Assembly (NCBI GenBank): GCA_030652115.1
Contig: JAUSBK010000001.1
Location: 430,254 to 494,253 of the forward strand
Source: Coriobacteriia bacterium
GTDB taxonomy: Bacteria; Actinomycetota; Coriobacteriia; Anaerosomatales; Anaerosomataceae
Reading direction: 5' to 3'
DNA length: 64,000 nucleotides
Below the pieces are notes generated by a model. That model searched no databases, was not told where the DNA came from, and saw nothing but the letters and a program-made list of their open reading frames with translations. A program made the position numbers and the translations under genes. Of this stretch, positions 1 through 12,013 are shown in pieces; the stretch's first letter is position 1, and every line of letters begins with the position of its first letter.

Positions 1-731
1 TTGTAGTCGCGGGGATTGCGCAGCATATCGGAGCGGCGACGCAGTCGCGTGAGCGGCCCGACGCGAGCGGAGCTTACCGGGACCTCGGCGAACCGACCGC
101 CGGGCGTGGGCGTCACCGGGTCCGTGTCGAAGCGCCAACACGGCCGGCGCGGAGCGTTTCTGTAGTCGAACGAGTGCGTGGCGGTGTGCGCGACCGTGCC
201 GGCAGCAACGGAGCTGTCGATCGTCAGACCTGCGGCATCCATCGCCTCGCCGATGATGTCGAACGGCTGCGCGCAGAACCCTCCCGCCCGGTACGCCTGA
301 ACCGAGTACTGCGGGTCGACTTCCCGCACGATGGCGGCCATGGCCTCGGTCGCCGAGACCACCAGGTCGACGGCACGCTCGCGCCCGAGCGCGCGGAGCT
401 GATAGTAGCGGTAGGTGGGGAAGACCCACCTTCCCTCACCGAACCACACGGCGTCGACCCAGTGAGGGTGCATCTGCAGCTCGACGCGATGCCCACCTGC
501 GACCATCCGCTGGAGCTGGTCGCTCACGCGTCGCGCGTCTTCGGAGGCGCGCGGCTCCTCGAGCACGCGCAGCAGATAGGCGGCGTCCACGAAGAAGCAG
601 CCCGGAGCCCCAAGTTCGGCGAGCTCAGCGAGCAGGGCGTCGGTGGGTTCGAGCAGGCAGCGTTCGGGGGTGCCAGACCGGCCGAAGAAGAGCTCGTAGT
701 CAAAGGTGAGCACGACGCTGCGCTTGCTCAC
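1..731 (-). CDS. Polysaccharide deacetylase family protein (C-terminus cut off by window edge)
   Basis: The frame is open from a GTG at 731 to the window edge (243 codons). The GTG overlaps the stop of the upstream FemAB-like gene in a GTGA, so the two are translationally coupled. The protein starts VSKRSVVLTFDYELFFG, whose TFDYE is the NodB-type metal-binding aspartate motif, and has an HPHW motif at residues 88-91, typical of the subfamily with an H-x-H pair before the second conserved block. Established knowledge: the family removes N- or O-acetyl groups from cell-wall or extracellular polysaccharide. The pairing with an acyltransferase suggests a role in modifying envelope or exopolysaccharide. 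The C-terminal catalytic motifs lie outside the window, so activity cannot be judged. Confidence 0.8.
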   Translation of the reverse strand, partial: MSKRSVVLTFDYELFFGRSGTPERCLLEPTDALLAELAELGAPGCFFVDAAYLLRVLEEPRASEDARRVSDQLQRMVAGGHRVELQMHPHWVDAVWFGEGRWVFPTYRYYQLRALGRERAVDLVVSATEAMAAIVREVDPQYSVQAYRAGGFCAQPFDIIGEAMDAAGLTIDSSVAAGTVAHTATHSFDYRNAPRRPCWRFDTDPVTPTPGGRFAEVPVSSARVGPLTRLRRRSDMLRNPRDY

Positions 732-1750
732 CGCGTCTGCCCTACCTGATCGATGATGTCCGCCGCGTCTCCCCGCATGCGCCTCATCATCCCATACAGG
801 GCGTACTTCCATTCGTTCAGCGGCATCTTCCACAGGAATCTCTCGATGACCTCGCCGCCGAAGCGCGTCTTGAACTGCAAGAGCCCCGCGTACTTGCTGT
901 CGGGCTCGGGGTTCAGGCGAACGCCGACGAAGTCGTAGACGCCGGCGCCGTGCTGGTGGGCGCGGAGCATCGCCTCCCACTGCAGCAGGTTTGCGGCGCC
1001 TTGTGTGGGGGAGTCTGCGGTGCCGGCGAACAGACAGTGCGCGCCGAAGCGACTCCAGGGATTCACCACGCAGGCCTTGGGGGCACCGTCGAAGCGCGCG
1101 ACCCCGATGTCGAGTGCGTCGCCGAGGCCCTCGACCAGCGCCCGGAACTCGCTCAGGCCCGGGAAGGAGAGCCCGGAGCGAGCCATCGTGCCGGCACACA
1201 ACGCGTGCGCCTCATCCGCAAGGTGGGATCCCCATTCGGCGGACACGCCGAGTGACTTCGCTTTGCGGATGATGGCGCGGTTCCGCCCTGTGAGTCCGCC
1301 CCACAGTTCTTCCTCGGTGACTGACAGGTCGACGAGCACCGTGCCGAAGGGTGCCGAGGCGGCACCGGCGGGGGCGGTTCGGAAGAGCGCCATCGTCGCG
1401 GGCTGCGTGATGAAGTCGAATCCATCAGCCCTGCACTGGAGGACCGCACCTTCGAGGAATGCTCGCTCGGTCTGAAGATCGATCGGCCTGCTGGACCATA
1501 CGCCCCACTGGAACTGCAGCCAGCGAAGGCCCACCCTGCGTCGGCCAACGAACGGAACCGCGATATGCAGATCCGGCGTGGGCCGGGCCTCCAGCCATCC
1601 GAATTCGGCCCCCTGGCTTCCCAGCCAGGCCGGAGCCATGAAGATCGGCATATCGTCGGTCCACGTGGGCTCGGTGCGGGCGACGGCCATCGCGGGAAGG
1701 CCGGTGGTCGCAGGCGCCGTAGGTGCGGCGTCGCCGGGCGTCGCTGTCAT
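728..1750 (-). CDS. FemAB/GNAT-like acyltransferase
   Basis: This is a 340-residue protein if translation starts at the ATG at 1750, which has a GGAG element about 12 nt upstream. The frame stays open to a TTG at 1870. The central part resembles FemAB-related GNAT-fold transferases used in peptidoglycan bridging or exopolysaccharide biosynthesis: a VDLSVTEEELWGGLTGRNR segment followed by a basic RKAK patch, and a C-terminal half with YDFVGVRLNPEPDSKYAG and FKTRFGGE. In that family the donor is often an aminoacyl-tRNA or acyl group; the substrate here is unknown. The stop overlaps the start of the deacetylase by 4 nt, implying one operon. It is divergent from the riboswitch-controlled secreted protein. 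Confidence 0.7.
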   Translation of the reverse strand: MTATPGDAAPTAPATTGLPAMAVARTEPTWTDDMPIFMAPAWLGSQGAEFGWLEARPTPDLHIAVPFVGRRRVGLRWLQFQWGVWSSRPIDLQTERAFLEGAVLQCRADGFDFITQPATMALFRTAPAGAASAPFGTVLVDLSVTEEELWGGLTGRNRAIIRKAKSLGVSAEWGSHLADEAHALCAGTMARSGLSFPGLSEFRALVEGLGDALDIGVARFDGAPKACVVNPWSRFGAHCLFAGTADSPTQGAANLLQWEAMLRAHQHGAGVYDFVGVRLNPEPDSKYAGLLQFKTRFGGEVIERFLWKMPLNEWKYALYGMMRRMRGDAADIIDQVGQTR

Positions 1751-1885
1751 CCGATCTGTGCTCTCCACGCGACCCGATCCCCCCACATCCACCCCGCGTG
1801 CATGCTGTGGCGCCCGCGGCAAGTCTACCACCTCGGCATTCGGGAACCGGCCTGCGACCGCTCGTCGCAAAGGACCGCTGCAAGG

Positions 1886-1913
1886 TCAAGTGCGCTGCGG
1901 CCGGAGCCGATAA
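1886..1913 (+). promoter_or_regulatory. Candidate sigma-28 (FliA/WhiG-type) promoter
   Basis: GCCGATAA at 1906-1913 exactly matches the sigma-28 -10 consensus. Twelve nucleotides upstream lies TCAAGTGC (1886-1893), which matches TAAAGTTT at 5 of 8 positions. Transcription would begin near 1920, about 40 nt before the riboswitch aptamer. A sigma-70 reading (TTGAGT 1928, TAATAC 1948) has only a 14-nt spacer and is less convincing. Confidence 0.35.
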
Positions 1914-1954
1914 GAACAACGTGTGAGTTGAGTACTGAATAGCGGGCTAATACC

Positions 1955-2042
1955 CCGGAAAGGCAACTCCGCCGAAAGGCGGACGACGCAAAGTCACGGG
2001 CCTACAGGAAGCGGGCGCTTCCCACGGCAGCCGGACCGCCCA
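1955..2042 (+). promoter_or_regulatory. Cyclic-di-GMP-I (GEMM-I) riboswitch aptamer
   Basis: The stretch has the ordered landmarks of GEMM-I aptamers. A P2 stem, CCGCC-GAAA-GGCGG (1969-1982), is capped by the GAAA tetraloop that docks into P3. Next come the core GACGCAAAGTC (1984-1994), then ACGGGCCTA, a second stem (GGAAGCGGGCGCTTCC region) and the 3' core GGCAGCCGG (2026-2034), which closes P1. Established knowledge: GEMM-I binds c-di-GMP. It sits in the leader of a secreted carbohydrate-active-like protein, in a window with two HD-GYP proteins, so c-di-GMP control of an extracellular protein is a coherent reading. Confidence 0.88.
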
Positions 2043-2057
2043 GGAGGACGCTGGTCA

Positions 2058-2104
2058 CCGTCCCCGATTCCTGAGCGATCTTCCCGGGAGTCGGGGGCGG
2101 TTTG
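2058..2104 (+). terminator. Terminator-like hairpin forming the riboswitch expression platform
   Basis: Bases 2058-2071 pair with 2087-2100 in a 14-bp stem (G-U pairs only at two positions) around a 15-nt loop, followed by TTTGCGTTCT. It lies between the aptamer and the start codon at 2133. That position fits transcriptional attenuation, although the U-tract is weak. Whether ligand binding promotes or prevents the hairpin cannot be told from the sequence. Confidence 0.6.
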
Positions 2105-2132
2105 CGTTCTATCTGGGCAAAGGGGCAGCTCG

Positions 2133-4760
2133 ATGAGGTATCTCGCCAAGTCTTCTTTCCGTTCGGCAGTCGTCGCAGCACTCTCCGTAGCAGTACTCGC
2201 AGTCTCGATCGGCTTCTCGCCGATTTCCGCAGCAACCGAAGCGGCCGTCGCTGCCGAGGTCTCCGCAACCGCGAACGCCGGGTATCCCCGCCTCGTGGCC
2301 TGGTGGCCCGATGTCCACTCGCTCGCCGCCGAGGACATCGCCCGCTTCGACGCCGTCATCCTCTACGACTGGGCCGGCCCGCAAGCTCAGGCGATCAAGG
2401 CCGCCGACCCGGCAACCGAGATCTTCCTCTCGACCAGCGCGAGTGAGCTCACGATGTACACCGAGCTCAACCCCGAGTCGTGGAAGAACGCGAAGCTCGC
2501 TGCCGCCTCGGCGCGTTGGTCCGTCACGCAGCCCGGGTCGACGCTCACCTCGGCGATCACCGCTGCCACGACCACGATCGGCGTGGCCACAGCGGACTCC
2601 ACTCGCTTCCGGGTGGGCGACGTGCTTGCCATCGACGAGGAGTTCCTCGAGGTCCAGGCCGTCAACGCCGGAACGCCCGGAAGCCTCGTGGTCCGCCGCA
2701 ACGCGGTGGTCTCGGGCACGCGCCACGCGGCCGCCTCGCACGCGGCAGGGACGCGGGTCGCAGCGGTCGTTCGCGAGTTCCCGAACACGGTGCTCATGGA
2801 CCTCACCGACTCATGCCCGCTCGTGGATGTGGGCAACGGCCCCGAGAACTTCAACATGTACCTCGCCCGCGTCTCCGCCGCTTCGATCAGCGATCCGGTG
2901 TGGGACGGCATCTACTTCGACATGATCGAGAGCAACAAGAGCTGGGTGCTCGACGCGGCGTTCGCCCGGGCGTTCGACCTCACCCGCTCGAACGTGATCC
3001 CGGCCAACGCGGACGCCTTCAACGCGGCGTGGGCCGTCGGGGTCCGGACGTTCGAGTCGCGGATGCGGACGCTCGCGGGCGACCGGCCGGTGCTCACCAA
3101 CGGCGCGGATGCGAACTGGGACCTCGTCAACGGCACGTGCGTGGAGCGGTTCCCGGCAAAGACGACGACAACCGCTGAGTGGCGCTCGCGGGTGTTCGGG
3201 TCGCAGGTGCCGTACGCAGGCGCCAACTACTTCGCGGGTCTTTCGGGCCTCGGCCCCAACTTCTCGAACCTGATCACCTACGACCAGGAGACCGACCCGG
3301 CGGTGGCGCTCAACTCGGCCACGTGGAAGCCCGACTACCGCAAGATGCGCTTCGGGATCGCCACCGCGCTGCTCGGCGACGGTCTCTACAGCTACGACCT
3401 TGGGACCTGGAACCGCGGGGACGTTCCGCAGCTTCAGTGGTTCGACGAGTACGACAACGCCGGTGCCGGCGAGGGCTACCTCGGCTCGCCGCTCGGTGAT
3501 GCGCAGCGGGTGGGCATGGCCACGGCCTCGGCGGACCTCCTCAACGGCGACGGCGCGTTCAGCACCTCGACGCAGCTTGCGGCCTGGACGCTGAACTCGG
3601 CCGAGAGCGGCTATGCAGGCACGAAGTCGCTCGACAGCGGCGCGGCGCGCGTGGACGTGACGGGAGCGCTCGGCGAGGCGTGGAAGCTCACCTTCCTCCA
3701 TCCGGTGCAGGTGACCGCAGGCACACCGTACACGCTCACCTTCCGCATGAAGGCGGACCGTCCGGCCGACGTGCAGATCTTCGCGCAGATCTCGAGCAGC
3801 CCGTACACGATGCCGCTGAACTACGAGTGGGTCGAGGCGGACACCGAGTGGCGCACGTACTCGCTCACGACCACCTCGTCGAGCACGCTCTCCCCGAGCC
3901 TCCGGTTCGCGCTCGGCTCGGCCACGGGCACCGTGTGGATCGATGACGTGAAGCTGCAGACGGGAACCACGAGCGAGGTGTGGCGCCGCGACTTCGAGGG
4001 CGGCATCGCGCTCGTGAACGCGTCGGACAGCCCGGTCACGGTCGACCTCGGCGGCACCTTCAGCAAGATCGACGGCGCGCAGGACCGCACCGTGAACGAC
4101 GGCAGCCAGGTAACGAGCGTGACGCTGCCGGCGAAGGACGGGATCGTTCTTCTCCGCGAAGCGGCGCCCGCGCCCGTCGTTCCCGAGCCGGAGCCCGCGC
4201 CCGTGACTCCCGAGCCGGAGCCCGTCGTCCCGGCACCGGCCCCCGAGCCCAGCGTGCCCGCGACCGTGACCCCGACGATCCCCACCACCCCGCCGGCAAC
4301 CTCGGTTCCCGTGGCCAAGCCGACGAAGGTGTACCGCTTCTTGAACCGCACGAACGGCACGCACTTCCTGACCGCCTCGGCCGAGGAGCGGGACACGGTC
4401 ATTGCGAGCTGGTCGAACGTGTACGCCTACGAAGGCGTGGCGTTCTCCACCGTCCCGGCCAGCAACTCCCAGCCGCTGTACCGCTTCTACAACCTCGCGA
4501 GCGGGAGCCACTTCTACACCGCGAGTGCCGACGAGGCGAACATGATCATGGCGAAGTGGTCGAACGTGTACTCGTTCGACGGCCAGGCCTACAACGTCTC
4601 CCCGCAGCCGGTTCCGGGCTCGGCGCCGGTGTACCGCTTCTACAACCTCAAGAACGGCAGCCACTTCTACACGGCTTCCGAGGAGGAGAAGAGCGCGGTC
4701 ATCGCGAAGTGGTCCGGGACGTACCAGTACGAGGGCCCGGCGTTCTGGCTCGGCCAGTAG
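2133..4760 (+). CDS. Secreted GHL15-like putative glycosyl hydrolase with three DUF5648 repeats
   Basis: An 875-residue exported protein. Residues 1-33 form a signal peptide. About 50-470 resembles the hypothetical glycosyl hydrolase family GHL15 (PRLVAWWPDVHS near the start, YRKMRFGIATALLGDG later). About 480-610 looks like a carbohydrate-binding beta-sandwich. A Pro/Glu-rich linker (about 680-735) leads to three repeats of about 45 residues, each beginning YRF-N-x-x-x-G-xHF-TAS, the DUF5648 signature often found on secreted hydrolases. The leader holds a c-di-GMP-I riboswitch and a hairpin. I infer that it acts on a surface or matrix polysaccharide, possibly the one modified by the divergent deacetylase/FemAB genes. 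GHL15 is itself poorly characterised, so catalysis is not certain. Confidence 0.82.
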   Translation: MRYLAKSSFRSAVVAALSVAVLAVSIGFSPISAATEAAVAAEVSATANAGYPRLVAWWPDVHSLAAEDIARFDAVILYDWAGPQAQAIKAADPATEIFLSTSASELTMYTELNPESWKNAKLAAASARWSVTQPGSTLTSAITAATTTIGVATADSTRFRVGDVLAIDEEFLEVQAVNAGTPGSLVVRRNAVVSGTRHAAASHAAGTRVAAVVREFPNTVLMDLTDSCPLVDVGNGPENFNMYLARVSAASISDPVWDGIYFDMIESNKSWVLDAAFARAFDLTRSNVIPANADAFNAAWAVGVRTFESRMRTLAGDRPVLTNGADANWDLVNGTCVERFPAKTTTTAEWRSRVFGSQVPYAGANYFAGLSGLGPNFSNLITYDQETDPAVALNSATWKPDYRKMRFGIATALLGDGLYSYDLGTWNRGDVPQLQWFDEYDNAGAGEGYLGSPLGDAQRVGMATASADLLNGDGAFSTSTQLAAWTLNSAESGYAGTKSLDSGAARVDVTGALGEAWKLTFLHPVQVTAGTPYTLTFRMKADRPADVQIFAQISSSPYTMPLNYEWVEADTEWRTYSLTTTSSSTLSPSLRFALGSATGTVWIDDVKLQTGTTSEVWRRDFEGGIALVNASDSPVTVDLGGTFSKIDGAQDRTVNDGSQVTSVTLPAKDGIVLLREAAPAPVVPEPEPAPVTPEPEPVVPAPAPEPSVPATVTPTIPTTPPATSVPVAKPTKVYRFLNRTNGTHFLTASAEERDTVIASWSNVYAYEGVAFSTVPASNSQPLYRFYNLASGSHFYTASADEANMIMAKWSNVYSFDGQAYNVSPQPVPGSAPVYRFYNLKNGSHFYTASEEEKSAVIAKWSGTYQYEGPAFWLGQ

Positions 4761-4848
4761 TCCTCCTTCCGAACGTGCGTGCTGACAATGCCCCATGCGT
4801 GTGGGCATATCTACTACGCACACCATGATTCGGACCGGAGGTGTCGGC

Positions 4849-5571
4849 GTGGCCGCAGGACCATCGGACCTCCCCCTCTTGAAGCTTCGCGACCTCGTGA
4901 AGGTCTACGACACCGGCGAGGTGCCGTTCACCGCGCTCAAGGGCGTCGACCTCGACGTCTACTCGGGCGAGTTCGTCGGGCTGATCGGCAAGTCGGGGAG
5001 CGGCAAGACCACGCTCATCAACATGATCACCGGTATCGATCACCCCACCTCCGGTGAGGTGATCGTGGGCGACACGCCGGTACATGCACTCGGCGAGAAC
5101 GCGCTCGCCAAGTGGCGCGGCCGGAACATCGGCGTGGTCTTCCAGTTCTTCCAGCTTCTGCCGACCCTCACCATCCTCGAGAATGTCCTCCTGCCGATGG
5201 ACTTCTGTGCCACCTATCCCCTCAAGGAGCGGGTGCCGCGGGCAATGGATCTCCTCGAGCAAGTCGAGCTCGCCGATCAGGCGCACAAGCTGCCGGCAGC
5301 GCTCTCGGGTGGACAGCAGCAGCGTGCTGCGATCGCACGCGCGCTCGCGAACGATCCGCCGATCCTCGCTGCCGACGAGCCTACAGGCAACCTGGACTCC
5401 AAGACCGCCGAGGCGGTCTTCGGCCTGTTCGAGCGGCTCGTGGAACAGCACAAGACGATCATCATGGTGACGCACGACAACGACCTCGCGTCGCGCGTGC
5501 GGCGTGCGCTGCACGTGTCCGATGGGGAGATCGTCGAGGAGCTTATCCACCGCGAGCGGCACACGGGCTGA
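4849..5571 (+). CDS. ABC transporter ATP-binding protein (MacB/LolD type)
   Basis: A 240-residue ATPase with every motif intact: Walker A GKSGSGKT (47-54), Q-loop in [12 protein letters not shown], signature LSGGQQQR, Walker B with [11 protein letters not shown], and a switch histidine in VTHDN. The GTG at 4849 is preferred because GGAGG sits 7 nt upstream (4837-4841). The in-frame ATG at 4795 has no good ribosome site and would add an unconserved leader. The gene is followed after 4 nt by its FtsX-type permease, so this is a type VII (mechanotransmission) ABC system. Such systems move lipoproteins, antimicrobial peptides or signals rather than small solutes; the substrate is unknown. Confidence 0.92.
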
Positions 5572-5575
5572 AGAC

Positions 5576-7969
5576 ATGAGCCCGGTCGCACCCCGCTACC
5601 GCAAGATCCTGCGCGACCTTGCGTCGCACTGGTTCCGGACGTTCCTGGTCGTGGTGTCGATCGCCATCGGCATCATCGCCGTCGGCGTGATGCTCGGCGG
5701 TCGGGAGATCCTGCTGCGCGAGTTTCACGCAGACCACACCTCTTCAGTTCCAGCGAACGTCACCTACCGGACGTCCGGCTTTGACGATGAGGTGGTAGCG
5801 GCCGCAACGGAGCAGCCCGGGGTCGCAGAGGCTCAGGCCCGTCACAGCGTGATGCTGCGGTACCGATGGGCGGGCAGCGACGACGACCGCACGATCTCGA
5901 TCGAGGCGTTCAGGGACTTCGAAGATATCCGGGTCGGTACGGTGATTCCCGTGGGCGACGGCCACTGGCCGCCGGCTTCGGGCGAGATCGTGCTCGAAGC
6001 GGCTGCGAAGCAGGTGGACGATTACGCGATCGGCGATGTCCTCGAGATCGAGACCGCCGACGGGGAGACCGTCGAGCTGCGCGTGGCCGGATTCGCACAC
6101 GACATCAACGCCGTGCCGGCGCAGTTCGTGGGCTTCGAGACCGGCTACGTCTCCTTCGGCGCGATGCATGACTTTGGCGAGGAACTCGAGTACAACCAGC
6201 TGTCGCTGACCTTCGCCGACGAGGACATCACGTGGGAGGAGGCGTCTCGCCTCTCGGTCGATCTGCGTGAGGAGCTGTTCGACTCTCGAGGTGTACAGGT
6301 CTACTACACCGACGTCCCCGAGCCGGGAAGCCACTTCCTCGGCGACATCTTCAACGCGTTGTCGCTGTTGTTGCTCTTCCTTGGCGCGCTCGCGCTCGGC
6401 CTTTCGGCGTTCCTCGTGGTGAACACGGTCTCGGCGCTGATGTCGCAGCAGGTCAGGCAGGTCGGCATCATGAAGGCGGTGGGCGGGCGCGCGGGACAGC
6501 TGGAGCGGCTCTACACCGTCACGGTCATGATGTATGGCGTGCTTGCGTGCGCTGTCGGCCTGCCGCTGGCGGCGGCGGGCACGCGGTGGTTCAGCGACTT
6601 CGCCGCCGAGATACTGAACTTCCGTGTCACGAGCTATGCGCCGCCGACGTGGGTCGTGCTCGTAGAACTCGCCGTGGGCATGCTGGTGCCGCTGCTTGCC
6701 GCCGCGGGGCCGATCCGCAGGGGCGTGAAGATGAGCGTCGTGCGGGCGCTCAACGCCGGCAGCATGACCGGGGCGCACTTCGGTCACGGACTGGTCGACC
6801 GCGTCCTCGGGATGATCCGCGGACTGCCCCGGCCGGTGGCGCTCGCACTGCGCAACACGTTCCTGCGCAAGGGACGTCTCGCGCTCACGCTCTCCACACT
6901 CGTCCTCGCCTCGGCGGTGGTGATGGCCGTCTGGAGCGTGCAGGCCTCGATCGAGCGCACGATCGATGACCTCGAGACGTGGTGGAACTACAACGTGCAG
7001 ATCGAATTCGCGATGCCGCAAGACGCCGATGCGGTGCTCGAGGCCGCCGAAGACGTCGACGGCGTGACGGCTGCCGAATCGTGGCCGGTCTTCAGTGCGA
7101 CGCTCCTGCGCGACGATGGCGCCGAAGACGAGTCGTTCCACATCGTCGGCCTCGACCCTGAGACGGACTTCATCGGCCCTACGCTGGTAGAGGGCAGGTG
7201 GCTCGAGCCGGATGATACCGACGCGATCGTCATCAACACCGACGCCCAGAGCAGGGATGGTTCGTTCGCCCTCGGCGATGAGGTCACGCTGCGCGTCATG
7301 GGGCAGGGGTCCGACTGGCGGGTCGTCGGCGTGGTGAAGGGGCAGTTGGGCGGGGGGTCGCTCTTCTGCAACGAGGCCGAGCTCAACGATCTGCTCGGCG
7401 ATCCGGGCGTGACGCGGATTGCTGTTCGTGGCGAGTCAGGGGAGGCCGAGGCGGAGCGTGAGTTGCTGACCGCTGTGGAAGACAAGCTGACCGGGGCCGG
7501 ATTCCAGGTCACCTCGGCCGACACACGCTCCGAACTCTCCGGGCATGTTCGCGAGTGGCTGGGCATCCTCATAGCGTTTCTCGTGCTCATGGCGACCATG
7601 CTCGCGGCGGTGGGCGTGATCGGCCTCACGGGCACGATGACCATCAACGTCCTCGAGAGTACCCGGGAGATCGGCGTGATGCGGGCCACGGGCGCGCAGC
7701 ACAAGGCGATCTACCAGATCTTCGTGAGCGAGGGCGTGACCGTCGGCGTGATCGCATGGTTCTTCGGGACGTTGCTCGCGTACCCGATCAGTTACGGGCT
7801 CGTGCGGGCGCTCGAGGTGGCGATCGGCGTGCCGCTGAGCTACGTCTTCTCGTGGTCGGGCGTGGGGTCGTGGCTCGGGCTGATGCTGCTCATATCCGGC
7901 TTCGCCAGCATCGCGCCGGCCTTCCGCGCGTCGCAGGTGAGCGTCCGCGACGCCATCGCGTACGAGTAG
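5576..7969 (+). CDS. FtsX-like ABC transporter permease
   Basis: 797 residues from the ATG at 5576, 4 nt after the ATPase stop. An N-terminal membrane segment (about 20-42) is followed by a large extracytoplasmic domain, three membrane spans (about 265-390) forming the first FtsX domain, a further span near 440, a second extracytoplasmic domain and a C-terminal FtsX domain with three spans (about 665-790, containing ESTREIGVMRATGAQ). The duplicated FtsX layout matches single-chain permeases of Gram-positive peptide-resistance or export systems. It pairs with the preceding ATPase. An earlier in-frame ATG at 5504 lies inside the ATPase gene and is not supported. Confidence 0.92.
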   Translation: MSPVAPRYRKILRDLASHWFRTFLVVVSIAIGIIAVGVMLGGREILLREFHADHTSSVPANVTYRTSGFDDEVVAAATEQPGVAEAQARHSVMLRYRWAGSDDDRTISIEAFRDFEDIRVGTVIPVGDGHWPPASGEIVLEAAAKQVDDYAIGDVLEIETADGETVELRVAGFAHDINAVPAQFVGFETGYVSFGAMHDFGEELEYNQLSLTFADEDITWEEASRLSVDLREELFDSRGVQVYYTDVPEPGSHFLGDIFNALSLLLLFLGALALGLSAFLVVNTVSALMSQQVRQVGIMKAVGGRAGQLERLYTVTVMMYGVLACAVGLPLAAAGTRWFSDFAAEILNFRVTSYAPPTWVVLVELAVGMLVPLLAAAGPIRRGVKMSVVRALNAGSMTGAHFGHGLVDRVLGMIRGLPRPVALALRNTFLRKGRLALTLSTLVLASAVVMAVWSVQASIERTIDDLETWWNYNVQIEFAMPQDADAVLEAAEDVDGVTAAESWPVFSATLLRDDGAEDESFHIVGLDPETDFIGPTLVEGRWLEPDDTDAIVINTDAQSRDGSFALGDEVTLRVMGQGSDWRVVGVVKGQLGGGSLFCNEAELNDLLGDPGVTRIAVRGESGEAEAERELLTAVEDKLTGAGFQVTSADTRSELSGHVREWLGILIAFLVLMATMLAAVGVIGLTGTMTINVLESTREIGVMRATGAQHKAIYQIFVSEGVTVGVIAWFFGTLLAYPISYGLVRALEVAIGVPLSYVFSWSGVGSWLGLMLLISGFASIAPAFRASQVSVRDAIAYE

Positions 7970-8380: not shown

Positions 8381-8697
8381 TGCACAGGCGTTTCGCACGC
8401 ATCCTGGTAGCGGTGGCGCTCGCCACCCTCCTCGGCGGAACCGCAGCCGTGGGCGCACCTGCACCCACGGAATCGGCTCCCCAGACTACCGGGCACGTTG
8501 CGGTGAGGACGACCGTGCTGCCCACACTCGAGAGCACGTTCACTGAGGACGGTGTGGTCGTGCGGTCCAACGTCCCGTGGGTCGTGTCGGCCGAGACCTC
8601 CGCCGGCGATCGCATCGTGATCGAGGGCGAAGCGACAGCCGGCCAGCACGTCGCCCTGCCGGATGCCGCGGGCCCGATCGAGGTCTGCGCGCGATGA
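8380..8697 (+). CDS. Small exported protein of unknown function
   Basis: About 105 residues; translation can start at the GTG at 8377 or the adjacent ATG at 8380. A basic start (MHRRFAR) and the hydrophobic stretch ILVAVALATLLGGTAAVGA give a signal peptide with a likely cleavage near APA. The remainder (about 75 residues) looks like one small beta-rich domain with no recognised motif. It ends in an ATGA overlap with the HD-GYP gene, suggesting a periplasmic or cell-wall partner of that signalling protein. Function is unknown. Confidence 0.6.
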   Translation: MHRRFARILVAVALATLLGGTAAVGAPAPTESAPQTTGHVAVRTTVLPTLESTFTEDGVVVRSNVPWVVSAETSAGDRIVIEGEATAGQHVALPDAAGPIEVCAR

Positions 8698-9314
8698 AGC
8701 CAGCGAGCGCGAGCACCGCGCAATTCTCTTTGGCGGTCAGGCGGGTCGTCGCGCTCATCGACGACCGTCAGCCGGGGTACGCACGGCACGCGAACAGCGT
8801 GGCGCGCCTCACGCGGATGGTCGGCCTCCAGTTCAATCTCGGCAGCCGTGCGCTCGAGAGCCTGCGGCTTGCTGCGCTGCTCCATGACGCGGGTTCACTC
8901 CGGCTGCCGTTCGGTCACGTGGGATCGCGATGGCAGCTCGTGGCCGAGGAACGCCTTGTATGGGAGGCTCACCCGGCTGCTGGAGCGATGCTGGCGCGGA
9001 CGCTCGATCTGTCGCCCGAGGTCGAGCGCGCGGTGCTCGGTCATCACGAGCGGTGGGACGGCTCGGGTTATCCGTACGGGCTCTCGGGCACGCAGATACC
9101 GCTCATGGCCCGCATCCTCGGCGTGTGCGACAACTACGACGAGGCGCGCTCGGGGCACCTCGAGTTGGACTCGCAGCAGCTCACCGAGGCCGAGGCGCTC
9201 GCGCGCTTGCGCAGCGACGAACTGCGGCGCTTCGATCAGGACGTGGTGCTCGGGCTCGGCGACGCGCTCGGTCAGGAGCGCGAGATCAGCGCGCTGACCG
9301 GCGTGCTCGGCTAG
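8694..9314 (+). CDS. HD-GYP domain protein (short, soluble)
   Basis: 206 residues from the ATG at 8694 (ATGA overlap with the upstream gene). It is essentially a stand-alone HD-GYP domain: H64-D65 in LLHDAGS, the pair H117-H118 in GHHERWDGSGYPYG (GYP at 125-127), and a final VCDNYDE. Established knowledge: HD-GYP domains hydrolyse c-di-GMP or related nucleotides using a di- or tri-iron centre. The usual HDIGK motif reads HDAGS here, so a conserved lysine is missing and activity may be altered. It is probably cytoplasmic, transcribed with two small membrane/exported proteins. Confidence 0.82.
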   Translation: MKPASASTAQFSLAVRRVVALIDDRQPGYARHANSVARLTRMVGLQFNLGSRALESLRLAALLHDAGSLRLPFGHVGSRWQLVAEERLVWEAHPAAGAMLARTLDLSPEVERAVLGHHERWDGSGYPYGLSGTQIPLMARILGVCDNYDEARSGHLELDSQQLTEAEALARLRSDELRRFDQDVVLGLGDALGQEREISALTGVLG

Positions 9315-9976: not shown

Positions 9977-12013
9977 CTAGCCTTTCATTCGCAGCGATCG
10001 CGGCACTGTGCACAGGTTGCTTGCCGCCGGCGCGAGCATGGTCCCGGCCACCCGCGCCACGCCCAGCGTCTCCAGCGCTGCCAGCGCCGAGGAGTCCTCG
10101 ACACCCGTGACGGTCACGATGGAGCCGGCCTCGCGCCACTGCTCGAGCAGCTCGCGCACGTTCGGGCGCGGTTGGCCGGCCTCATCGAGAACTGCGGACA
10201 CGGGCAACTCTATCTCATCAGCGCCGAGGGCCGACGTACCGTTCGTCCCGAGCGACGAGAAGTCGATGCATGAGTGCACCAGGCGGATGGGGGAGCGTTG
10301 CGCCGCCTGAAGCCAGCCAGCGGGTGGGCGGATGCCGCCGGCGCTGCACATGGGGATCTCGAACAGCAGCTGGGCGGGGTCGACCGCAAGGCGGCTCGCT
10401 GCCAGTTCGGCTCGCTCGAAGATTGTGGGATCGAGGACGTCGGCGGTCGAAAGCTGCATCGAGCATGGTACACCCGCAGCGCGCGTGTGCTCGAGCGTGA
10501 GCTCCACGATACGCATGTTCACGCGGCGCGCTACACCGTGCTTCGCCGCGCCGAGGGCAAGTTCGTCGCCAGCGACCAGCCGCTCTTCGACGGCGTACGC
10601 GTAGCGGACCGCGCAGCGGGCCAGATGCCCGGCGGGAAGTGAGTAGACCGGGTTGAAGCTCATCGCCGGCGGCCCCTCGAGCGCTTCGATCAGGCGTCGT
10701 TCACTGTCACTCTTGGCATCGGCCGCAGGTGCAGTTCGGGCGGCCGCATGCAACAGCCGCACCTCGGGTATCACGTTGATCGCAACGTTCACGCTGAGTC
10801 GCATCTCGGGCGCTGCCGGCACGAGCGAGGACCGGGCTATCGCTGCGCACAGGGTGTCCGAGAGGTCGCTCGCCTCATCCCAGCCGAGTCCCTCGGCGAG
10901 CACCACGAACTCGGTTGCGCACAGCCGTGCCACGAGGTCCCCCGGGCGCACAGCATCGGTGATGGCGTGCGCGAGGTTCGCCACGGTGGCGTCGCCCACG
11001 TCGAAACCGTAGCGGTCGTTCACGCCTTTGAGGCTGTCACTGTCCACGAACAGCAGCGCGCAGTTCGAGCCCTTGCCCACATTGCGCAGGATCTCATCGA
11101 AGCGGCGGTCGAATACGTGTCGGGTGGGCAGATCGGTGAGGGGATCGTGTTCGGCCGCGTGGAGCAGGAGCTCCTTCTGCTGCTCCCGCTGCGTCACGTC
11201 GAGCGCCGCGAGCACGAAGCCGAGGCGGACCCCATCGGGGCTCTTGTACGGCAGGCCGGACACCTCGAACACGCGGTACGCGCCATCGTGTCTGGAGATG
11301 CGCATCGACGTGTGCATGGGATGGGGATCGCGCACGAGTGAGCCGAGGAAGGCCGCCGCCGCTGGGGCGTCCTCGGGATGCACGGCGGCAAGCAGTGCAG
11401 ACGCCTCCAGCTGTCCCGTGAACGTGCGCGACGTCTCGTTCGAGAAGTCCGGCTTGCCGCTCTCGTCGAGCGTGACGATGTGAACTGGGAGGTGGTCGAG
11501 CAGAGCGTGGTAGGAGTCACGCAGTGCGCGCGACTCGTCGAGTGCCGCCACCTTCTGGTCGAGCTTCCGCTCGATGCGGCCGCCATACCGATCGAGGATC
11601 GAGACGAGCCGCGCCTCGGTGAGCGCCGTGCGCCCCTCGGAGGAGTGGCTGCGCAGGACCTCGTTCACGGTCCTGATGAGCTCAGCCGGCTCGACCGGCT
11701 TGAGCAGGTACGCGTCCGCGCCCATTGCGGAGGCCAGCTGCAGATCGTCCGGGTGCGTGAAGCTCGCCGTGTGGAAGATGAAGGGCAGCCCCGCGAGTTC
11801 GGGGTCGCGCTTCAGCTCCAGGCACAGGCGGAAGCCGTCCATCACCGGCATCAGGCCGTCGGAGATCACCAGATCGAACGGCTCGGACTGCGCGCGCTTG
11901 AGGGCCTCGGCGCCGTCCGGCGTCTCGACCACCTCGTGCCCGGCGTGCGTGAGGATGACTCGAAGGAGATGTCGCGCCTCCGCCGAGTCGTCAGCAACGA
12001 GGATGCGCGCCAT
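9977..12013 (-). CDS. REC-PAS protein with degenerate GGDEF and EAL-like domains
   Basis: 678 residues. An intact receiver (about 1-125: acidic D8-D9, acceptor D52, lysine in YLLKPVEP) is followed by a PAS domain (about 170-275), a GGDEF-fold domain (about 285-430, starting DPLTDLPTRHVFD) and an EAL-like domain (about 455-675). The active-site GGDEF reads CATEF and no EAL motif is visible (the segment reads FNPVYSLPAGHL). Diguanylate cyclase and phosphodiesterase activity are therefore both unlikely. It may act as a c-di-GMP or protein effector controlled by phosphorylation. It is the first gene of an operon with the LuxR regulator and is divergent from the large histidine kinase, a possible partner. 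Confidence 0.87.
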   Translation of the reverse strand: MARILVADDSAEARHLLRVILTHAGHEVVETPDGAEALKRAQSEPFDLVISDGLMPVMDGFRLCLELKRDPELAGLPFIFHTASFTHPDDLQLASAMGADAYLLKPVEPAELIRTVNEVLRSHSSEGRTALTEARLVSILDRYGGRIERKLDQKVAALDESRALRDSYHALLDHLPVHIVTLDESGKPDFSNETSRTFTGQLEASALLAAVHPEDAPAAAAFLGSLVRDPHPMHTSMRISRHDGAYRVFEVSGLPYKSPDGVRLGFVLAALDVTQREQQKELLLHAAEHDPLTDLPTRHVFDRRFDEILRNVGKGSNCALLFVDSDSLKGVNDRYGFDVGDATVANLAHAITDAVRPGDLVARLCATEFVVLAEGLGWDEASDLSDTLCAAIARSSLVPAAPEMRLSVNVAINVIPEVRLLHAAARTAPAADAKSDSERRLIEALEGPPAMSFNPVYSLPAGHLARCAVRYAYAVEERLVAGDELALGAAKHGVARRVNMRIVELTLEHTRAAGVPCSMQLSTADVLDPTIFERAELAASRLAVDPAQLLFEIPMCSAGGIRPPAGWLQAAQRSPIRLVHSCIDFSSLGTNGTSALGADEIELPVSAVLDEAGQPRPNVRELLEQWREAGSIVTVTGVEDSSALAALETLGVARVAGTMLAPAASNLCTVPRSLRMKG

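Follow-up and report, generated by a model that had tools for sequence, protein, structure and literature searches.

Is a secreted protein of the GHL15 family under the direct control of c-di-GMP in this member of the Coriobacteriia, and if so, through what arrangement of promoter, aptamer, and expression platform? The question was raised by an initial annotation of the DNA analyzed here (a stretch of 64,000 nucleotides, hereafter the window), which placed a c-di-GMP-I (GEMM-I) aptamer directly before a gene for such a protein. The source genome assembly comprises 2.38 Mb in 14 contigs. The features of the window on which the analysis, computational throughout, draws are as follows:

728-1870, minus strand: divergent FemAB-family gene (Pfam), near the end of an exopolysaccharide-type cluster
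1886-1913, plus strand: predicted WhiG/FliA (sigma28)-type promoter (exact pattern match)
1944-1956, plus strand: putative anti-Shine-Dalgarno (anti-SD) strand (duplex energy and covariation across the order)
1952-2043, plus strand: c-di-GMP-I (GEMM-I) aptamer (Rfam)
2038-2051 with 2104-2118, plus strand: predicted basal extension of hairpin B (minimum free energy fold of the full leader)
2057-2073 with 2085-2101, plus strand: 17-pair stem of hairpin B, without a canonical U-tract (sequence)
2119-2125, plus strand: Shine-Dalgarno (SD) sequence AAAGGGG (sequence)
2133-4760, plus strand: secreted GHL15, CBM_4_9, and DUF5648 protein of 875 aa (Pfam; apparent signal peptide)
4795-5571, plus strand: MacB-like ABC ATPase (Pfam), 34 bp past the GHL15 gene
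5576-7969, plus strand: FtsX/MacB-type permease (Pfam)

The aptamer and the GHL15 gene

A scan of the whole 64-kb window with Rfam 15 was repeated on positions 1900-2140, where the initial annotation had proposed a GEMM-I covariance search. RF01051 was the sole Rfam match in the window, at 56.2 bits relative to a cut-off of 35 (E 2.7e-8 for 64 kb) and over the full model (positions 1-87), and its score was significant in the shorter interval. In the Rfam alignment, P2 carries a GNRA tetraloop (CCGCC-GAAA-GGCGG), corresponding to the GAAA-capped stem described initially, and the predicted ligand-contact bases (G1962, A1990, and C2039) are all canonical; these are the probable counterparts of G20, A47, and C92 of Vc2. 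The identities of those Vc2 contacts have been published (PMC4744006). Collectively, these observations indicate that this is almost certainly a genuine c-di-GMP-I riboswitch aptamer, as had been claimed, and that the riboswitch is a newly found member of an already known class. Recognition of another ligand (3'3'-cGAMP or a variant) might be suggested by two related GHL15 leaders that were reported under the c-di-GMP-I-GGC variant model and not RF01051. However, RF01051 is the best family for the window and the positions of G20, A47, and C92 are canonical, which makes another ligand exceedingly improbable.

The gene directly downstream encodes a protein with an apparent N-terminal signal peptide, as judged from its sequence, followed by GHL15 (residues 232-459), CBM_4_9 (481-586), and DUF5648 (732-872) domains, all of which score above Pfam cut-offs (38.2 bits for GHL15, PF14885, relative to a cut-off of 27). 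The claimed pairing of an aptamer with a secreted GHL15/DUF5648 protein was therefore borne out. GHL15 is one of the GHL1-GHL15 families of predicted glycosidases, and we found no characterized member. At least 97% of 35 aligned relatives retain each of the acidic residues E170, D258, D263, E338, D438, and E439, a pattern that is consistent with an active glycosidase; an AlphaFold2 model of GHL15 was poor (mean pLDDT of 41 from 5 sequences). We judge it an even matter whether the enzyme acts on polysaccharide. At about a dozen places in the source genome, the C-terminal regions of proteins match the DUF5648 part of the window protein, which suggests that DUF5648-like C-termini share a role at the surface or in export across the genus.

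The ABC ATPase is probably co-transcribed with the GHL15 gene. Near a riboswitch-associated GHL15 gene from another family (genome G047), counterparts of the ATPase and the permease were identified at 75% and 49% identity, respectively, with two opposite-strand genes standing between the GHL15 gene and the transporter. Divergent from the leader, a cluster that runs on past the window edge encodes FemAB, a deacetylase-like protein, an asparagine-synthase/amidotransferase, glycosyltransferases, and a polymerase-like membrane protein. The initial annotation had described a divergent deacetylase/FemAB operon, of which FemAB was confirmed; the gene next to it is deacetylase-like by its TFDYEL motif, with no Pfam match at E 0.001. 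Two further proteins are encoded near the riboswitch, one HD-GYP-like (8577-9314) and one of response regulator-PAS-GGDEF-EAL architecture whose motifs are degenerate (CATEF in place of GGDEF; 9977-12013).

The leader at the GHL15 gene could be a decayed or horizontally copied element without function, given that its aptamer scores below most aptamers of its relatives and that its P1 and anti-SD strands differ from those of the other aptamer copy in the genome. However, the promoter, core, hairpin, SD sequence, and start spacing are all intact, and in another family an aptamer likewise precedes GHL15 close to a homologous ABC transporter. We consider loss of function very unlikely.

Promoter and expression platform

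The predicted promoter comprises a -35 element TCAAG (1886-1890), one change from TAAAG, a 15-nt spacer, and a -10 element GCCGATAA (1906-1913). Most aptamers of the order are preceded by the pattern T(A/C)AAG-N15-GCCGATA or by one closely resembling it. The exact pattern occurs seven times in the source genome when compared to once for the reversed pattern, and one of the seven sites probably reflects chance. Two of them belong to the two c-di-GMP-I leaders of the genome, and the others mainly to two prepilin genes and a PilB-like operon. Among 10 relatives, such sites were followed by pilus genes in several cases, and unrelated sites were also detected. The source genome encodes one FliA_WhiG sigma factor above the cut-off (275.9 bits), and flagellin was not found in 27 genomes. 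These patterns suggest that the window promoter is very probably of the WhiG/FliA type.

In Rubrobacter, WhiG has been reported to drive type IV pili under the control of RsiG and c-di-GMP; the main text of that report does not mention Coriobacteriia (PMC8325347). A search of the source genome for the RsiG motif returned four matches when compared to two in the reversed control, which is background level, and none was in a convincing small protein or near the whiG-like gene.

Leaders of the order typically comprise the aptamer, a long hairpin, and an AGGGG-type SD sequence, with AGGGG(C/T) upstream of the start codon in most of them. Across these leaders, the segment that immediately precedes the aptamer is complementary to the SD/start region. 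In the window, the duplex joins GGGCT (1944-1948) to AGCTC (2127-2131) and CCCC (1953-1956) to GGGG (2122-2125), at -15.5 kcal/mol with its own SD/start region when compared to a mean of -11.8 kcal/mol with the SD regions of other genomes. Folds of the full leader enclose the aptamer and hairpin within the anti-SD helix. Among 43 leaders of the main (HExxH) target described below, cognate pairing averaged -17.2 kcal/mol, relative to -14.3 kcal/mol when SD regions were permuted. None of 20,000 permutations reached the cognate value, whether the full set of 43 leaders or a single leader for each of 25 genera was used (p<5e-5 for the latter), and a single leader for each of 11 families gave p=0.0014, in a test that removes effects of relatedness only in part and in which a few SD positions, being picked automatically, may be wrong. 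Pairing was weaker in the other two GHL15 leaders, at -13.3 kcal/mol (G047) and -10.1 kcal/mol (G046), the latter being no better than mismatched pairs.

The 14-bp terminator-like hairpin of the initial annotation exists as a hairpin and is longer (17 pairs), but it is not a canonical terminator: its tail, TTTGCGTT, has 4 T of 8 and fails the intrinsic-terminator rule of the tool used. Its basal extension, in which GCCCAG pairs with CTGGGC, overlaps the 3' end of the aptamer and stops just 5' of the SD sequence. Ligand binding could conceivably turn hairpin B into a terminator (transcriptional OFF, as in C. difficile Cd1) if a U-poor tail were enough at high GC. The hairpin and its tail sit where a terminator would, a few relatives have TTTT tails, GCCC (2038-2041) in the basal stem could compete with P1, and class I switches of C. 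difficile terminate transcription (PMC6366702). Arguing against termination, the plus strand of the window has no terminator-like site, none of 47 related leaders has at least 5 T within the 8 nt 3' of the stem, and the pairing with the SD sequence coevolves. Termination thus appears unlikely, and the hairpin was rejected as a terminator in the leading view since the tails lack U-tracts.

Translational control, with the SD sequence sequestered by the segment that precedes the aptamer, is favored, because SD pairing coevolves and the leaders lack U-tracts, and on this comparative evidence we consider it likely. Separately, GAUGUGCG recurs 3' of hairpin B in most leaders, and in many an AUG occurs shortly after GGAGG. 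This upstream AUG was rejected as a start because it does not keep a constant reading frame with the gene.

An order-wide cassette and its targets

The aptamer was detected in 56 of the 69 genomes of the order, compared to 24 of 329 genomes sampled elsewhere in the class. The first downstream gene was read for all 63 aptamers, comprising 61 further sites and the two of the source genome, the second of which is on contig 3. A small secreted HExxH protein follows 45 of the 63, including one (G033) recognized by position. The member in the source genome is as follows:

Contig 3 (locus L032), 5295-5876, minus strand: HExxH protein with the same leader type, as at 44 other loci

The other targets are GHL15 proteins (window, G046, and G047), GH26 proteins (G030, G031, G032, and G052), GH5-like proteins (G050 and G051), beta-helix proteins (G018, with CWB2 domains by Pfam, and G026, a look-alike by sequence), subtilases (G040 and G049), an HD/GGDEF protein (G022), and a few others. 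Eight genomes have an aptamer and no HExxH gene (G026, G030, G031, G046, G047, G049, G051, and G052), and in each the aptamer precedes another secreted hydrolase or hydrolase-like protein, which we report as a descriptive pattern. In G022 (contig C15, 63338-63430), the aptamer lies 380 nt before a GAF/HD/GGDEF protein, which makes feedback on c-di-GMP turnover possible. Two aptamer-HExxH units stand in tandem in G043 (contig C111, 37081 and 38127; locus L036).

GHL15 scored above the Pfam cut-off in 3 of 398 genomes of the class. A search of related genomes, as had been proposed, identified the riboswitch before GHL15 in two of them, such that an aptamer precedes three of the five GHL15-like genes of the order (window, G046, and G047); a second GHL15-like copy in G046 and the G030 gene lack one. 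Outside the Coriobacteriia, none of 34 loci encoding GHL15 relatives (mostly Anaerolineae) has a c-di-GMP-I match at gathering score. From these distributions, riboswitch control of GHL15 is, by all appearances, a lineage-specific recruitment. A general association of GHL15 with the riboswitch was rejected on the basis of the same 34 loci. GHL15 was also rejected as the main or ancestral target, given its share of the aptamers (3 of 63) and of the class genomes; as read from the downstream genes, it is one minority, swapped target of an order-wide cassette. We regard the combination of a WhiG-type promoter, a probable SD-sequestering platform, and hydrolase targets exchanged between lineages as a variant that is new, and no paper describing it was found in a limited literature search.

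The HExxH protein was identified in 50 of 398 class genomes, all within the order. It ends in HE(I/V)WHIIDWRDNG-IDWGENVPP, the HExxH residues are invariant among members, and no meaningful Pfam match was found in the four members scanned. Its C-terminal domain was modeled at pLDDT 94-97, and fold matches were weak, with selecase-type minimal metallopeptidases first (best E 0.03). An LPFTG surface protein gene lies near 28 of the 31 HExxH loci with at least 5 kb downstream, and a sortase-like gene was identified by pattern at 21 of the 31; neighbors in the source genome include a Pfam sortase and SdrD_B/SpaA proteins. These observations suggest that the HExxH protein, itself undescribed, may be a small protease.

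Sign of regulation and relation to known systems

In C. difficile, PPEP-1 is a secreted metalloprotease under a class I riboswitch that frees two anchored adhesins (PMC11477304), and the working class I switches of that organism are uniformly OFF (PMC6366702). Because of the likeness to PPEP-1 and this uniformity, we lean toward high c-di-GMP turning the gene OFF. Vc1, in turn, has the opposite sign to the C. difficile class I switches (PMC4744006), and a review cited here warns against extrapolation. The sign is not settled by folding: when P1 was forced, mean pairing of the SD sequence with the 5' strand was no higher (0.73 versus 0.78 free) and in the window was nearly unchanged (0.47 versus 0.48 free), with increases in some leaders and decreases in others. 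Moreover, the base of hairpin B in the window uses C2039, a predicted ligand contact, which counts against our preferred explanation.

The converse, in which ligand-stabilized P1 takes the C-rich strand from the SD sequence and switches translation ON, would exploit the ability of CCCC (1953-1956) to serve either P1 or the SD sequence. It would agree with the lowered SD pairing under forced P1 in several leaders (e.g., G009 and G010) and with Vc1, through which c-di-GMP turns on the gene for a secreted protein that binds chitin (PMC4744006). Nevertheless, forced P1 raises SD pairing elsewhere, such as in the second leader of the source genome, and a surface-releasing protease would be better suited to low c-di-GMP, as is PPEP-1; we view an ON switch as improbable.

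Retaining the OFF reading, we find it reasonably probable that the riboswitch lies in a WhiG/FliA-type transcript comprising the leader, the gene for the secreted glycosidase-like GHL15 protein, and probably the ABC transporter, and that high c-di-GMP switches translation OFF. The SD/start region would be paired with the segment preceding the aptamer, with hairpin B bridging the gap, and binding of c-di-GMP would stabilize P1 and the SD helix. When c-di-GMP falls, the enzyme would be made and would act on extracellular polysaccharide, perhaps that of the neighboring cluster. Across the order, the same cassette would place secreted hydrolases, mainly the small HExxH protein, under the promoter type of type IV pili. 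Neither the promoter, the probable co-transcription of the transporter, nor the cassette featured in the initial annotation.

More tentatively, the portable leader cassette may be a surface-release switch, in which one sigma factor serves both pili and release enzymes while c-di-GMP silences the enzymes alone. Lineages would have exchanged one enzyme for another, with a mini-metallopeptidase directed at sortase-anchored proteins in some and polysaccharide hydrolases, GHL15 among them, in others, in convergence with C. difficile PPEP-1. If the HExxH protein cleaves the adjoining sortase-anchored proteins, the PPEP-1 strategy evolved twice, and the swapping of targets is a natural experiment in the reuse of a regulatory cassette. 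The locus also provides a testable context for GHL15, and it would place c-di-GMP control in RNA leaders of a WhiG-type pilus regulon, for which Rubrobacter and Streptomyces use an anti-sigma protein.

The closest likeness is to C. difficile ppep-1 (CD2830; adhesins CD2831/CD3246), where a c-di-GMP-I aptamer also precedes a secreted enzyme and where, as for the main target of the order, a secreted HExxH protein stands beside LPxTG surface proteins (PMC11477304). In C. difficile, the switch terminates transcription and the substrates are themselves under class II riboswitches (PMC11477304), whereas a WhiG-type promoter, apparent SD sequestration, and a small HExxH family without a Pfam match characterize the order, with GHL15 as the target in the window. 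V. cholerae Vc1-gbpA likewise has a c-di-GMP-I riboswitch before a secreted carbohydrate-active protein (PMC4744006). The placing of such a riboswitch before a protein of this kind is thus not without precedent. Vc1-gbpA differs in its positive sign and in that neither a terminator nor an anti-SD is apparent, and GbpA is chitin-binding and not a GHL15 protein (PMC4744006). Lastly, the Rubrobacter RsiG-(c-di-GMP)-WhiG system shares WhiG-type promoters (TAAA / GCCGATAA) on pilus genes, a non-sporulating actinobacterial host, and c-di-GMP; there the signal acts via the anti-sigma factor RsiG, whereas here an RNA switch would lie inside part of the regulon (PMC8325347).
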